A stretch of 64,000 nt of DNA. It comes from Salipaludibacillus sp. LMS25 (GTDB lineage Bacteria > Bacillota > Bacilli > Bacillales > Salisediminibacteriaceae). Numbering within the stretch: position 1 is the stretch's first letter; each line of letters opens with the position of its first letter. Below the pieces are notes generated by a model. That model did not search any database. It saw nothing but the letters and a program-made list of their open reading frames with translations, and was not told where the DNA came from. This document shows positions 5,509-63,143 of this stretch, one piece after another. The position numbers were made by a program, and so were the translations under genes. The stretch is from NCBI RefSeq assembly GCF_024362805.1, contig NZ_CP093299.1:3752001-3816000 (forward strand), written 5' to 3'.

Positions 5509-5665
5509 ATAAAGCTAAGCTTCAATCAGTGGAGTTTTCCTTCATCCCCCACTGATTGTTCGTTTAACTTATGGGACCTTTAGGGGCAGTTTATCCCCCA
5601 CCTAAACGTTTCGATCTTCTAAGTTTTGAGGTGAGGGTTTTACTGCCCCTTAAGAGTGGGATAAA
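5509..5665 (-). repeat. Family A interspersed repeat, copy 1
   Basis: A 157-nt copy in the reverse orientation relative to the other family A copies. It holds the AATCAGTGGG/CCCACTGATT hairpin and a long hairpin whose outer arms are GGGGCAG and CTGCCCC. It starts 5 nt after the comEB stop and fills nearly half of the 385-nt comEB-comEC gap. The rest of that gap (5666-5888) shows no gene, only AT-rich sequence and the comEC Shine-Dalgarno. A 66-codon ORF starting inside the repeat is not credible. Confidence 0.9.
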
Positions 5666-24653: not shown

Positions 24654-25574
24654 TTATTTGTGCATCCATTTAAGAAGTCGCGCAATTTGATCAGAAAAAG
24701 GCAAAAATATAAGCGAACTCACCACATTAAAAAGAAAGGCCGCATGAGCCAATTGACGCTCTGGTGACGAACTTAGCAAAGAAATGAAACCTGAAAAACT
24801 TTCTAAAAATGGCAAACAAATAATCACTCCTAATATGTTTACCCAAATATGAGCATAAGCTGTCATTTTTGCTTCTTTAGATGCTCCTAAACTAGCAAAC
24901 CATGCGGTAATACACGTTCCGATATTTGCACCGAGCATGATGGCAATAGCAGACGATAAGCCTAGGAGTTGCTCATTCATAAAGCTCATGGCTATAGCCG
25001 TAACAGCTGAGCTAGATTGAACAATGCTACTCATTATTAAACCTGTCACAACACCTAGCTGAACACGCTGGCTTGTTTCCACAAACCAATAGTGTATAGA
25101 GGGGATGGATGTAAGAGGATAGGCTAGTGTTTCAAAACCATGCATGGAAATAAACATCATGGCCATGCCGAATAAGACGCACCCTGTGGCGAAACCCTTC
25201 TCATTGGTTGAAAACAAACATAGACCGCCGATTAGTAATAGGGGGACTGATATAGAAGATAAATCGTAGGCAAGAATTTCTAACGTGGCGACAGTTCCAA
25301 TATTTGCACCGAGCATAATTCCGATAGAATAATGAAACGGAATCGCTCTAACTGCTACGAGTCCCACGGTCATAACCATAACAGCTGAGCTGCTTTGTGT
25401 GATTGCTGAAGCTAGTACCCCTGTTAAAAGACCTTTCCAAGGTTTATCAGCAAAACGATGCAAAAAAAGCGGCATTTTTTTCCTGAAACCAAGCGTTAAA
25501 CCGTGCCTCATAACGATCATACCACATAAAAAAAGTGCTAGATAAATTGTAAAAAAAGTGACTGATTCATTCAT
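24654..25574 (-). CDS. yqeW: YqeW, Na/Pi-cotransporter II-related membrane protein
   Basis: A 306-residue polytopic protein with two inverted copies of the Na/Pi-cotransporter repeat. Each copy carries the QSSSAV signature (ITQSSSAVMVM and IVQSSSAVTAI) plus a GANIGT motif. It probably carries phosphate or another anion with sodium; the substrate is not proven. No PhoU-like C-terminal domain is present. ATG 25574 (MNESVTFFTIY) follows GGGGGAAGG on the minus strand; the 29 extra upstream residues of the longer ORF look non-coding. Place between mtaB and rpsU matches B. subtilis. Confidence 0.88.
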   Translation of the reverse strand: MNESVTFFTIYLALFLCGMIVMRHGLTLGFRKKMPLFLHRFADKPWKGLLTGVLASAITQSSSAVMVMTVGLVAVRAIPFHYSIGIMLGANIGTVATLEILAYDLSSISVPLLLIGGLCLFSTNEKGFATGCVLFGMAMMFISMHGFETLAYPLTSIPSIHYWFVETSQRVQLGVVTGLIMSSIVQSSSAVTAIAMSFMNEQLLGLSSAIAIMLGANIGTCITAWFASLGASKEAKMTAYAHIWVNILGVIICLPFLESFSGFISLLSSSPERQLAHAAFLFNVVSSLIFLPFSDQIARLLKWMHK

Positions 25575-36247: not shown

Positions 36248-36257
36248 GGTGTTTTAT

Positions 36258-36382
36258 ACAGCTAACCGTCCGAAAAACGCCGGCCTGAAAATAGAGAGGA
36301 GAGCTAGCTCTATATAGGCGGGAGATACCGGAGGCTAATGTCCTGATTCACTCAACTCCCACTGATTGAAGGGGTGTTTTAT
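36258..36382 (+). repeat. Family B interspersed repeat, copy 1
   Basis: A 125-nt copy between dgkA and cdd. It starts ACAGCTAACCGTCCG, holds GAGAGGAGAGC and GGCGGGAGATA blocks, and ends CCCACTGATTGAAGG...TTTTAT. It lacks the AATCAGTGGG arm of the terminal hairpin that longer copies have, so this copy has lost part of the switch region. Oriented with dgkA transcription. Confidence 0.88.
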
Positions 36383-37760: not shown

Positions 37761-37789
37761 AGGTTAAAGCCGAGTTACTTATATCTATG

Positions 37790-37925
37790 ACAGATAACCG
37801 TCCAAAAAACGCCACTCTCAAAATAGAGAGGGGCGGGAGACAACGGAGGCTAATGCCCTGATTCACTCAACTACCAATCAGTGGGAGAAGAACGAAAACG
37901 CCAACTGATTGAAAGTTCGTTTTAT
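37790..37925 (+). repeat. Family B interspersed repeat, copy 2
   Basis: A 136-nt copy starting 29 nt after the era stop and oriented with it. It keeps all three CTGATT/AATCAG segments: CTGATT at 37858-37863, AATCAG starting 37876, and CTGATT starting 37905. Competing hairpins are therefore possible in this copy. Confidence 0.9.
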
Positions 37926-43911: not shown

Positions 43912-44424
43912 ATGTTGGTCTTTAAAACGGCTTATGTTCACTAGAAAACATACATAGTCATATACAATGTCGATTTGAAAGGTGGACATGCATTCATCTA
44001 GTGGCTTAATAACCTTGATAGACAACAATGACAGTCAGTGTCTTTGAAAATAAGTGTAAAGAAATCCAACTATCTAGTCACAACCGTGCCCATCATAAGC
44101 GTTGGAAGATTAATAAAAATGACCGATGGAATAGAGGCTCATGCAGAAAAGAAAGTAAGGCACGACAAAGCAATCTTGAGGTGACACGGCCCCTTCTCCA
44201 CAGACTCGTAAATCTCGGCAAAGTAATGTTGTGCTCACATGGAAGTAATCCCCTTTTGTGGAAGTGATACTATACAAATAGCACCTCTAGTGTCGAAGGT
44301 GATGTTATTCAGCAGCCCCTAGTTAACATGCTATTATGATGTTTATTATAAAAAACAATTAAAACCATAGCGTGATTTACTATTATCCTATATAATGAAA
44401 TATTGTGACTTGATAAAATTTAGT
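43912..44424. other. Long intergenic stretch with no supported gene
   Basis: About 510 nt between the ppsR terminator and family B copy 3. A 79-codon ORF (44028-44267) has odd composition, no good ribosome site and no recognised similarity. A small inverted repeat CACCT/AGGTG lies near 44281-44301. I see no tRNA or known riboswitch. It may be decayed sequence. Confidence 0.4.
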
Positions 44425-44577
44425 ACAGATAACCGTTCGAAAAACTCTCACCGAAAAATTGAGAGCAGAGATAAATCTATATAGGCGGGAGATAACGAAC
44501 GATAATGTCCTGATTCACTCAACTACCAATCAGCGGGAGAAGAATGAAAACGCCCACTTATTGAAGGTTTGTTTTAT
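44425..44577 (+). repeat. Family B interspersed repeat, copy 3
   Basis: A 153-nt copy, the longest of the family, between the ppsR terminator region and yqxD. It starts ACAGATAACCGTTCG and ends with CCCACTTATTGAAGG and TTTTAT. The terminal hairpin has point changes on both arms (AATCAGCGGG / CCCACTTATT), so it looks older. Confidence 0.9.
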
Positions 44578-48373: not shown

Positions 48374-48422
48374 AAGTCATAAAAGGAAATGTGATAACAT
48401 TTACCCTTTTATGACTTTTCTT
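48374..48422 (+). terminator. Terminator of dnaG-sigA
   Basis: AAGTCATAAAAGG (48374-48386) pairs with CCTTTTATGACTT (48405-48417), then TTTC. A perfect 13-bp stem. Confidence 0.9.
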
Positions 48423-48579
48423 TATCCCACTCTTAAGGGGCAGTAAAACCCCCACCTCAAAACTTAAGAAGATCGAAACGTTTAGGTGGGGGTTTTACTG
48501 CCCCTAAAGGTCCGATGAGTTAAACTAACAATCAGTTGGGGATGAAGGAAAACTCCCACTGATTGAAGCTTAGCTTTAT
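48421..48579 (+). repeat. Family A interspersed repeat, copy 2
   Basis: A 159-nt copy, the best-preserved of its family. Hairpin 1 is a perfect 21-bp inverted repeat: 48437-48457 with 48484-48504, arms starting GGGGCAG and ending CTGCCCC, with a 26-nt loop. Hairpin 2 pairs AATCAG at about 48530 with CTGATT at 48559-48564. Ends carry TTTAT on both sides. The rest of the sigA gap (48580-48866) holds AT-rich sequence and no gene. Confidence 0.93.
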
Positions 48580-53861: not shown

Positions 53862-53994
53862 ATAAAACGAACCTTTAATCAGTGGGCGTTTTCGAACTTC
53901 TCTCCTTGATTGGTAGGTGAGTGAATCAAGACATTAGCGTCCGTTATCTCCCCTTTCTTTTTTCAGGCCGGAGTTTTTCGGGACGGTTATCTGT
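53862..53994 (-). repeat. Family B interspersed repeat, copy 4 (reverse orientation)
   Basis: A 133-nt reversed copy, so it is oriented with the minus-strand genes on both sides. Read on the minus strand it starts ACAGATAACCGTCCC and ends CCCACTGATTAAAGG with TTTTAT. It lies just past the carD terminator and upstream of ispH. Confidence 0.9.
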
Positions 53995-54007
53995 GATAAT
54001 AAGCACA

Positions 54008-58413: not shown

Positions 58414-59778
58414 ATGAAGAAAGTAAATGAAGTGCCACAAAGAGAATTATTTCAGGAACTGATTCACCTGTCATCAGAGTTTTGTATTATCCTAGATGGA
58501 GAGTTACAAGTAATAGATGTCATTACGAAAGAGCCCCGATTATCAAGACTACTTTATCACCCTTTTCACCATTTGACCCCTTGTAAAGAAGTTAAATCCT
58601 TTATTCATGCTATCGCTAACGGGACTGTTATTGGACTAAAACGCTTTTCTATCACCGTAGATGGGGAAGATATTCTTTTTGACTGCAAAGGTAAAAAAGT
58701 GGATGATAATATTTATGTATTGGGAAATAGAGTGAAAGAGTCAGATACTCTAAGATTTTTTGACCTAAACAAATTCCCTATTCCTGCGATGATGCTAAAT
58801 AAGCAAGGCAGGATACTTAAAAGCAACACGCATTTAAAAAATTTACATAAACAAATGGTAATCAATGAGAATACATCAGCCTATATTAGCACAGGAGAAA
58901 ATACGCACCCTATTTATAGTAAATATTGTGTCGTCTTCAGCCAACTAAGTTTAACTAATCGAGATGCTTATGCAGAGTATCGTACAAATGATGTGAGACT
59001 TGTTATAAAAGGGCTAACAGATGGTGACCATATTTTAATTATGGTTAAAGATGAAAGCTTTCAGGAACGATATGAAGAACTTCTTTCTTATCAACAGCAG
59101 ATGCAGGCTGTTTCGCAAATTGCTGCAGGTGTAGCTCATGAATTAAGAAATCCATTATCCGTCATTAAAGGGTTTATTCAGTTATCAAAATTGTCCAATA
59201 ATCTTGATAAATACTACGATACGATTTATTCAGAGATGGACAGAATGAATAAGATTATTGAAGACTTTCTCTCGATATCTAGAAAGAAAATGGACAAGCG
59301 ATATCTTCAACCAGGAGAATTAGTGGAATCGATGCTAATGATTTTTCATTCAGAATGTACACTTCATGATGTTGAATTTGTTCACGATATTCAGGAGACA
59401 GAAGCGTATTTGTATGTAAATGATCAGATGATTAAGCAAGTACTCATTAATATTATGAGAAACGCAATTGAGGCATACGAAGGTCAGGAAACGAATAGAA
59501 TGTTTTATGTTTCTGCATTGATTAAACATGACTATTATGTGATTAGCTTGAAAGATTGTGGGCCAGGCATTCCGCCTCATCTTCTTGAAAAAATAGATGA
59601 GCCATTTTTTACCACAAAAAATTCGGGAACGGGTATTGGTATCCCTTTAGGAAGACAAATTATAGAAGAGCATAATGGTCTATTCGAAATTGCTAGTGTG
59701 TGTGGAGAGGGCACAGTCGTAACGATTAAGCTACCTATTTATACAGAAACCGCCCGTAAACCTCCCGGCTTAAACTAG
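58414..59778 (+). CDS. Orphan sporulation-type sensor histidine kinase
   Basis: A 454-residue histidine kinase without membrane segments. An N-terminal sensory region with PAS-like segments (about 15-215) precedes the phosphoacceptor H242 in GVAHELRNPLSVIKGFIQLS, the H-box type seen in KinA-KinE of the sporulation phosphorelay. The catalytic domain has NIMRNAIEAY (N-box), DCGPGIPP (G1) and GTGIGIPLGRQIIEEHNG (G2). No response regulator is adjacent. The last 11-12 codons and the TAG stop fall inside family B copy 5. ATG 58414 follows AAGGAG; ATG 58390 is an alternative. Confidence 0.9.
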   Translation: MKKVNEVPQRELFQELIHLSSEFCIILDGELQVIDVITKEPRLSRLLYHPFHHLTPCKEVKSFIHAIANGTVIGLKRFSITVDGEDILFDCKGKKVDDNIYVLGNRVKESDTLRFFDLNKFPIPAMMLNKQGRILKSNTHLKNLHKQMVINENTSAYISTGENTHPIYSKYCVVFSQLSLTNRDAYAEYRTNDVRLVIKGLTDGDHILIMVKDESFQERYEELLSYQQQMQAVSQIAAGVAHELRNPLSVIKGFIQLSKLSNNLDKYYDTIYSEMDRMNKIIEDFLSISRKKMDKRYLQPGELVESMLMIFHSECTLHDVEFVHDIQETEAYLYVNDQMIKQVLINIMRNAIEAYEGQETNRMFYVSALIKHDYYVISLKDCGPGIPPHLLEKIDEPFFTTKNSGTGIGIPLGRQIIEEHNGLFEIASVCGEGTVVTIKLPIYTETARKPPGLN

Positions 59779-59892
59779 AGAGGAGAGCTAACTCTATTTA
59801 GGCGTGAGGTAACGCCGCTAATGTTTTGATCCACTCACCTACAAATCAGTGGGAGAAAAACGAAAACGCCACTGATTGAAGGTTCGTTTTGT
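59743..59892 (+). repeat. Family B interspersed repeat, copy 5, overlapping the kinase gene end
   Basis: A 150-nt copy beginning ACAGAAACCGCCCG at 59743, inside the kinase reading frame, and ending ACTGATTGAAGG...TTTTGT. Its first 36 nt encode the kinase tail TARKPPGLN region and its stop TAG (59776-59778). Orientation is the same as the kinase. Confidence 0.9.
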
Positions 59893-60498: not shown

Positions 60499-60657
60499 TT
60501 TATCCCTCTCTTAAGGGGCAGTAAAACCCCCACCTCAAAACTTAAGAAGGCCGAAAAGTTTATGTGAGGGATAAACTGCTCCTAAAGGTCCCATAAGTTA
60601 AACGAACAATCAGTGGGGGATGAAGGAAAACTCCCACTGATTGAAGCTTAGCTTCAT
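60499..60657 (+). repeat. Family A interspersed repeat, copy 3
   Basis: A 159-nt copy with hairpin 1 imperfect (GGGGCAG ... CTGCTCC outer arms) and hairpin 2 intact (AATCAGTGGG / CCCACTGATT). TTTAT on the left and TTCAT on the right. Confidence 0.92.
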
Positions 60658-62813: not shown

Positions 62814-63032
62814 ATTGCTTTTTAAGGCTAAATCACCATAGAAAAATGACTTATTTAAAGTGGGGTAATGAAATACTAAAATGAGACGGTTATTAATTGT
62901 TGGGCATGAGTTCCACCCTATATTGGCCCCATGCCCTTTAGCTTTGTCAGGAAAGTGGGCAACCTTAAGTGAAAGCTACTAGTGTATATATTGTTTAAAA
63001 ATGTAAATGGAAAGGAGGACTTATACACGAAT
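62814..63032. other. Intergenic stretch between permease and family A copy 4
   Basis: About 220 nt of AT-rich sequence. A GGGCATG / CATGCCC inverted repeat (62902-62908, 62930-62936) is present. No gene is seen. Confidence 0.4.
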
Positions 63033-63112
63033 TGCCCCTAAAGGTCCCATAAGTTAAACGAACAATCAGTGGGGATGAAGGAAAACTCCCACTGATTGAA
63101 GCTTAGCTTTAT
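63033..63112 (+). repeat. Family A interspersed repeat, 3' half copy 4
   Basis: An 80-nt copy holding only the right half (from the CTGCCCC-side TGCCCCTAAAGG onward) with hairpin 2 and the GAAGCTTAGCTTTAT end. It lies 31 nt beyond the ppk stop in the gap between two convergent genes. The missing left half marks a truncated insertion or deletion. Confidence 0.9.
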
Positions 63113-63143
63113 CGAAGGTAAGGAGATTTTCACTCGCCCCCAC

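Follow-up and report, generated by a model that had tools for sequence, protein, structure and literature searches.

Repeat families A and B of Salipaludibacillus sp. LMS25 are two branches of one folded, non-autonomous mobile element

The repeat families A and B of Salipaludibacillus sp. LMS25 were analyzed and compared in this study and were found to represent two branches of a single non-autonomous mobile element (~155–160 nt). The window referred to below is the whole stretch of 64,000 nt of the LMS25 genome that was analyzed (NZ_CP093299.1, 4,525,667 bases; here G000), and two sister genomes of the same genus (G001 and G005) were used for comparison. What seemed to be a local short repeat turned out to be a family of order-wide extent, the conserved fold of which is recognised by one covariance model of the whole element (R1, model positions 1 to 159). 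Such repeats have hitherto been described with only a possible recombination-like mechanism, and the replication-linked orientation reported here offers a concrete, testable one, i.e., single-stranded DNA at the lagging-strand template.

The initial annotation had proposed that A and B share a terminal hairpin, which is confirmed in both window and genome. With at most one mismatch allowed, the hairpin arm AATCAGTGGG has 19 matches in the window, where 3.31 would be expected (19 reached in 0/100 shuffles), and CCCACTGATTGAAG matches 674 times in the genome against 0 for the reversed-pattern control. Ten R1 matches were identified in the window, nine of which are copies of the element (Table 1), while the tenth lies antisense to the palindromic part of the 48421 copy. 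In the copy at 37784, the 3′ hairpin module is decayed, with the right arm CCAACTGATT and the tail GAAAG. This copy is old because orthologous copies are present in G005 and G001, so that all three genomes are filled at this site; the flanking genes were read by eye and are presumably era and recO.

Table 1. Copies and parts of the element in the window (positions of the 64,000-nt stretch).
Feature	Positions	Strand	R1 score or other basis
Family B copy	5509..5665	-	155.8 bits
Family A copy without 5′ arm of 3′ hairpin	36252..36382	+	80 bits
Family A copy of the initial finding, decayed	37784..37925	+	109.9 bits
3′ hairpin module of the 37784 copy, tail ending TTTTAT	37876..37925	+	motif matches
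Family A copy	44419..44577	+	137 bits; exact single-TTTAT empty site in G005 and G001
Family B copy, TTTAT at both ends	48421..48579	+	167.3 bits
Family A copy	53862..54000	-	89.1 bits; G001 empty: TTTATATAAA
Family A copy	59738..59892	+	109.6 bits
Family B copy	60499..60657	+	146.9 bits
Family B copy, left part missing or decayed; right part ~63030-63113	62966..63112	+	84.1 bits

An Rfam scan of the window returned a T-box leader only (RF00230, 39012-39183), located between genes that were read by eye and that we take to be recO and a glycyl-tRNA synthetase subunit. No Rfam model reached its cut-off on the element, and the below-cut-off matches around the 48421 copy are mostly to eukaryotic microRNA hairpin models. 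Two direct-repeat pairs with equal 378-base spacing at 24916-25391 are probably an internal gene duplication.

The left parts of A and B had been considered unrelated, as two different bodies joined to one end. This does not hold, since both families, together with bridging copies from a Pseudalkalibacillus hwajinpoensis plasmid (two) and from G019, a genome of another genus of the family (three), align over their whole length (24 sequences, 78% mean column identity), and their left parts fold alike. In both families the left hairpin consists of an outer stem, an A-rich internal loop, and an inner stem, while the stem letters differ. The element thus has two hairpins, one subterminal at each end, with compensatory changes, including the exchanges C-G/G-C (13:11), C-G/A-U (13:10), and C-G/U-A (11:10) at paired columns. 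RNAalifold returned 24 pairs common to both families, eight of them changed on both sides. Paired cells make up 96.0% compared with 87.6% after shuffling (0/500 shuffles) and 33–54% in slid versions, and 50 double-change cells were observed vs 21.4 in shuffled alignments. G.T exceeds A.C at paired columns by 42 to 8 (counted in A1 and the first 30 rows of A2, with one mostly T-G column omitted), which indicates that the named strand is the folding strand, either as RNA or as single-stranded DNA.

The full form of family A reads TTTAT-CACAGATAACCGTCCG...GGTTCGTTTTAT and that of family B TTTAT-CCCACTCTTAAGGGGCAG...GCTTAGCTTTAT, where GGTTCGTTTTAT and GCTTAGCTTTAT are the tails, both closed by TTTAT. 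The ends are direct (left TTTATC(C/A)CA, right (C/T)TTTAT), and inverted terminal repeats are absent. TTTAT stands exactly at both ends in 58 of 80 distinct full copies of the own-genome set, and intact left ends are TTTAT in 66/81. When four modules were scored in the 80 own-genome full copies, 41 were B throughout, 12 were A throughout, and 21 had at least one unclear module. Chimeras that are A on the left and B on the right account for six of the 80 and the reverse type for none, while a B left part with an A tail was found in one of 26 full copies of the sister genomes.

Orthologous flanks in G001 and G005 are mostly ~83–92% identical, and 17 filled/empty comparisons were made. The filled 44419 site has two TTTAT, the left one mutated, and G001 and G005 both read AAAATTTATAAAAAATAGG, which contains one TTTAT. 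Empty sites with a single TTTAT were also identified for 48421 (in G001), for 53862 (in G001), for a G000 copy at ~3,749,679 (in both sisters), and for one G001 copy (in G005); the remaining sites are decayed, unlike TTTAT, or not alignable to the base. At 36252, G005 and G001 lack the copy. The single TTTAT of these orthologous empty sites indicates that the element moves. B occupies the TTTAT site at 48421 in G000, A occupies it in G005, and G001 has the site empty; A and B therefore use one TTTAT target. At 53862, G005 carries an A copy in the other orientation. The common target, the chimeras, and the lagging-strand-template bias described below agree with the earlier proposal of one recognition system for A and B, which probably acts on single-stranded hairpins in the manner of HUH enzymes.

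Family B makes up 31/60 of the pieces in matching stretches of G000, 4/40 in G005, and 3/21 in G001, and its expansion is a burst in one lineage. In the G000 samples, the median nearest-neighbour identity is 94.6% for B and 85.2% for A; for A in the samples of the sister genomes it is 89.2% (G005) and 86.2% (G001). Dispersed pairs at least 97% identical are absent from the samples, one G001 pair being the same site in overlapping loci, and very recent activity was rejected on this ground. The age of the sampled copies, which are not very young any more, is in keeping with bursts in the past, and identities of 85.2–94.6% suggest that copies may outlive their enzyme. Insertion behind transcription terminators was also considered and rejected: a hairpin lies at most 10 nt 5′ of 17/72 copies vs 143/713 control sites (intergenic TTTAT), which is not significant, while the mean folding energy is slightly lower at the copies (p 0.03).

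According to GC skew, the replication origin of G000 is located near 1.9–2.0 Mb and the terminus near 4.2 Mb. Origin placement rests on the skew because TTATCCACA, tried as an aid, was almost equally frequent in the reversed control (79 vs 70) and was dropped. In 96 of 106 G000 copies (124 BLAST pieces merged, from 464 kb), the folding strand runs with the fork, i.e., it is the lagging-strand template. Sorted by neighbour genes (open frames of at least 80 aa), the counts are 39/42 where both genes run with the fork, 44/50 where they are mixed, and 13/14 where both run against it. Without three off-grid, hand-picked regions, two of which were chosen from a forward-strand list, 77/86 copies run with the fork, including 7/8 between genes that both run against it. 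The contiguous 264 kb around the window contain 49/60 pieces oriented with the fork; intergenic TTTAT, as a control, occurs 327 times with and 393 times against it. The corresponding count in G001 is 69/81. Local skew gives 56/62, 46/48, and 40/42 for full copies in G000, G005, and G001, respectively, and 114 to 10, 126 to 17, and 97 to 16 for all pieces, with at least one G001 copy counted twice owing to overlapping loci. The bias is weak for named copies in other genera (45/69, p 0.015; 3-kb loci, 8 vs 6) and is not seen in G019, with 31 plus vs 29 minus overall and 2 to 6 at 3.0–3.5 Mb, though the skew is positive at 3.41 Mb. All four intact IS200 copies of G000 are oriented to the fork like the element. 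That orientation follows replication in the three congeneric genomes suggests movement as single-stranded DNA.

R1 matches were identified in 86 of 299 genomes of the order Bacillales, representing 50 of 116 genera, and every listed match spans model positions 1 to 159. As nine candidates were scored per genome, R1 copy numbers are lower bounds. A named scan with one right-end variant yielded at least 120 stretches, and the 80 loci analyzed belong to Niallia, Sporosarcina, Oceanobacillus, Lysinibacillus, Cytobacillus, Neobacillus, Peribacillus, Psychrobacillus, Metabacillus, and others. The distribution is patchy within the genus, with exact end-motif counts of 480 in G000, 94 in G001, 131 in G005, and 0 in five other congeners. 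Among the forward-strand matches listed for G000, no exact right-end match falls at 2,405,602-3,000,485 (~2.41–3.00 Mb), and the adjoining regions are dense. No copy was found in the phage records searched, and three scans of viral contigs gave 0, 2, and 0 stretches, the two being copies of 226 nt and 55 nt. Short copies occur under other-phylum names at L172 3980-4071 (Klebsiella grimontii plasmid pNY3A) and L215 (Modestobacter contig), for which transfer or contamination is possible.

Head-to-tail A arrays with a period of ~152–155 nt are present at L101 6545-7431, L102 7979-9514 (G001), and L109 10461-11079 (G005). Tandem and dimer copies have one common TTTAT or TATAT junction, and the internal junctions of the G001 A arrays read TATAT instead of TTTAT. 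Mini copies of ~55 nt, in which a left stub is joined to the right hairpin arm and tail, were observed at L200, L205, L212, L213, L215, L244, L101 8238-8291, and L104 12391-12445. Among 87 right ends in the 80 named loci, no apparent gene-bearing long version was observed. Sixty-six of these ends lie within R1 matches; the other 21, judged by eye in 330 nt upstream, comprise nine longer variants with extra hairpins, seven minis, two tandem neighbours, two short decayed copies, and one cut by the locus end.

The extra hairpins of longer copies are Rfam Bacillaceae-1 (observed at L232, L221, L253, L096, L111, L295, L300-L302, L304, and L306-L309). Bacillaceae-1 is a high-copy repeat in its own right. 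It was detected in 33 of the 44 genomes chosen, more than 80 times in four of them, and also occurs in genomes without R1 matches. When the best copy from each of 16 genomes was considered, it lay within an R1 match in ten of the 16 loci, in the same orientation in four and the opposite in six. Its opposite strand carries ACAGGATGT in hairpin loops, which we take to resemble CsrA sites. Because Bacillaceae-1 is a high-copy repeat that is often nested in the element either way round, the reading of this listed candidate non-coding RNA as a stand-alone RNA gene is called into question. It is entered as RNA in the table of Weinberg et al. (PMC2864571).

Taken together, the element is probably a PATE-type non-autonomous single-strand-DNA element that is moved in trans by an IS200/IS605-like Y1 HUH enzyme. 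Such a transposase would bind both hairpins on single-stranded DNA exposed in replication, cut after TTTAT on each side, and release a single-stranded circle that would be inserted 3′ of a new TTTAT. The B-A and A-B dimers and the tandem arrays would then result from occasional insertion at the TTTAT that closes another copy. The enzyme may since have been lost from some carriers, or may have been missed. Against this reading stand the lack of a Y1 enzyme with matching ends in the loci examined and the weak bias outside the genus.

Of the six Y1 matches found in G000, four are equally scoring TnpA genes of the IS200 type and two are broken remnants; none falls in the window, as the initial annotation had stated for RAYT transposases. 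It had also suggested a genome-wide search for a Y1 gene flanked by the same hairpin, and in G000 this search spoke against the idea, since the end hairpins of the resident IS200 differ from those of A and B. The resident IS200 is thus not supported as the mover, and its left flank is TTTAT in three of four copies. The four intact IS200 copies (L001-L004) each directly follow what appears, by eye, to be a terminator hairpin and its T run; in two cases, a B copy lies within ~10 nt of the right end. Two TnpB Pfam domains had no match in G000. Element ends bound none of the 62 Y1 loci within a reach of 1.5 kb on either side, and R1 matches among these loci are restricted to the four own-genome loci (nearby copies) and, weakly, L162. 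Y1 matches are absent from 16 of 80 element-bearing genomes (nine weaker R1 positives are outside this count). The initial annotation had named two observations that would count against its own proposal: G001 and G005 do carry the repeats without any Y1 match, which concerns HUH enzymes of the Y1 type only, while independently conserved ends of A and B were not seen.

The analogy that it drew with RAYTs, in which the hairpin would be a REP moved by a domesticated TnpAREP, appears highly improbable. RAYTs likewise act on single-stranded hairpins (PMC8266576), and some Y1 match occurs in 64 of the 80 element-bearing genomes, many in open frames of 180–290 aa. However, an intact RAYT-length Y1 gene is lacking in G000, as is any Y1 match in the two sisters, and among 20 RAYT-length Y1 loci of element-bearing genomes, mostly with ~4 kb of flanking sequence on either side, a single, weak R1 match was identified (L399, 35.9 bits, ~450 nt from the gene). 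Fourteen earlier RAYT-length loci, only four of them from motif-bearing genomes, had no R1 match. Moreover, the element is ~157 nt long, and in consensus copies its palindrome is preceded by TACC or GAAC, not GTAG. Strand-specific folding would also suit a retro-element, a kind of bacterial SINE whose folded transcript is copied into the lagging-strand template by a reverse transcriptase of the group II intron type. Lagging-strand template DNA is the retrohoming target of some group II introns. This origin is nevertheless quite unlikely: RVT_1 was detected in 8 of the 18 genomes searched, the 16 genomes without Y1 include 10 that lack RVT_1 as well (G001 and G005 belong to these), Bacillaceae-1 modules are nested in both orientations, and the T-box was the only result of the Rfam scan of the window.

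A tyrosine recombinase acting on a folded single strand, as at integron attC sites, with TTTAT as the crossover, would account for an asymmetric folded element with a same-strand bias and for head-to-tail arrays with a common junction, but dispersal over many sites whose common feature in these data is TTTAT makes this unlikely. TTTAT flanks filled sites on both sides, as a 5-bp target duplication would also leave it, and the element might accordingly be a MITE of a DDE transposon that duplicates TTTAT. The step from one TTTAT in the empty site to two in the filled site, an A copy of G005 (240772) with TTAAT at its left and right ends alike, and the description of bcr1-bcr3 as MITE-like (PMC3446304) are in line with this. 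We consider it very doubtful given the lack of inverted terminal repeats and a replication-linked orientation that would not be expected of such an element. Deviations at left and right are, in addition, mostly independent; the left pentamer is altered in nine own-genome copies, eight of which still have TTTAT on the right, a pattern that later mutation could also produce. Somewhat less unlikely than these alternatives is a so far undescribed single-strand DNA recombination system that is not of the Y1 type. If true, one folded substrate would have stayed recognisable in 50 or more genera of a single order and would persist in genomes without a detected Y1 transposase or reverse transcriptase, and such a system would account for bcr1-like repeats.

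By size, TTTAT ends, and abundance, the closest described repeat is bcr1, the length of which we take to be ~155 nt. In the title of a 2004 paper by Okstad, bcr1 is reported as specific to the B. cereus group; plasmid searches for the element gave no match in this group. A length of 167 nt in a stem-loop-family model and of 147 nt in the literature (PMC2267715), a TTTAT motif (PMC6542083), and a high-copy, MITE-like nature (PMC3446304) have been given for bcr1. As compared by description, the element and bcr1 share a size of ~155 nt, TTTAT ends, and high copy number. A literature search, with subscription literature mostly outside its scope, found no description of the order-wide family or its strand bias. 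REPs, which are 20–50 nt long and most often preceded by GTAG (PMC8266576), resemble the element as high-copy palindromes, and the HUH enzymes of the REP/TnpAREP system act on single-stranded hairpins. The element differs from them in its size, the missing GTAG, its two-hairpin body, and, as far as the examined loci show, the lack of a RAYT gene linked to it.

IS608 and ISDra2 insert into the lagging-strand template via a single-stranded circle (PMC6006769), 3′ of a tetra- or pentanucleotide (PMC7290912). Such a bias is not obligatory, as 10 of 22 tnpA genes of IS605 in Halanaerobium are on the leading strand (PMC7290912). The element resembles IS608 and ISDra2 in that its hairpins are subterminal, it is inserted 3′ of a fixed short sequence, and it prefers the lagging-strand template, but it contains no tnpA or tnpB, and the TnpB domains had no match in G000. 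Like PATEs, the element has near-terminal palindromes, no inverted terminal repeats, and no coding capacity, is inserted 3′ of a fixed pentanucleotide, and often occurs in genomes without an intact transposase; size and ends also agree. The lagging-strand-template orientation of PATEs was found in G000, G001, and G005, weakly in other genera, and not in G019. Unlike PATEs, the element has TTTAT on both sides. PATE palindromes match IS605-type transposons, whereas ends related to a TnpA transposon were not found for the element among 62 plus 20 Y1 loci, and we therefore call it PATE-like instead of filing it as a PATE. The two also agree in nesting: PATEs of Haloquadratum harbor SMR-A elements (PMC3119063), as the element harbors Bacillaceae-1.
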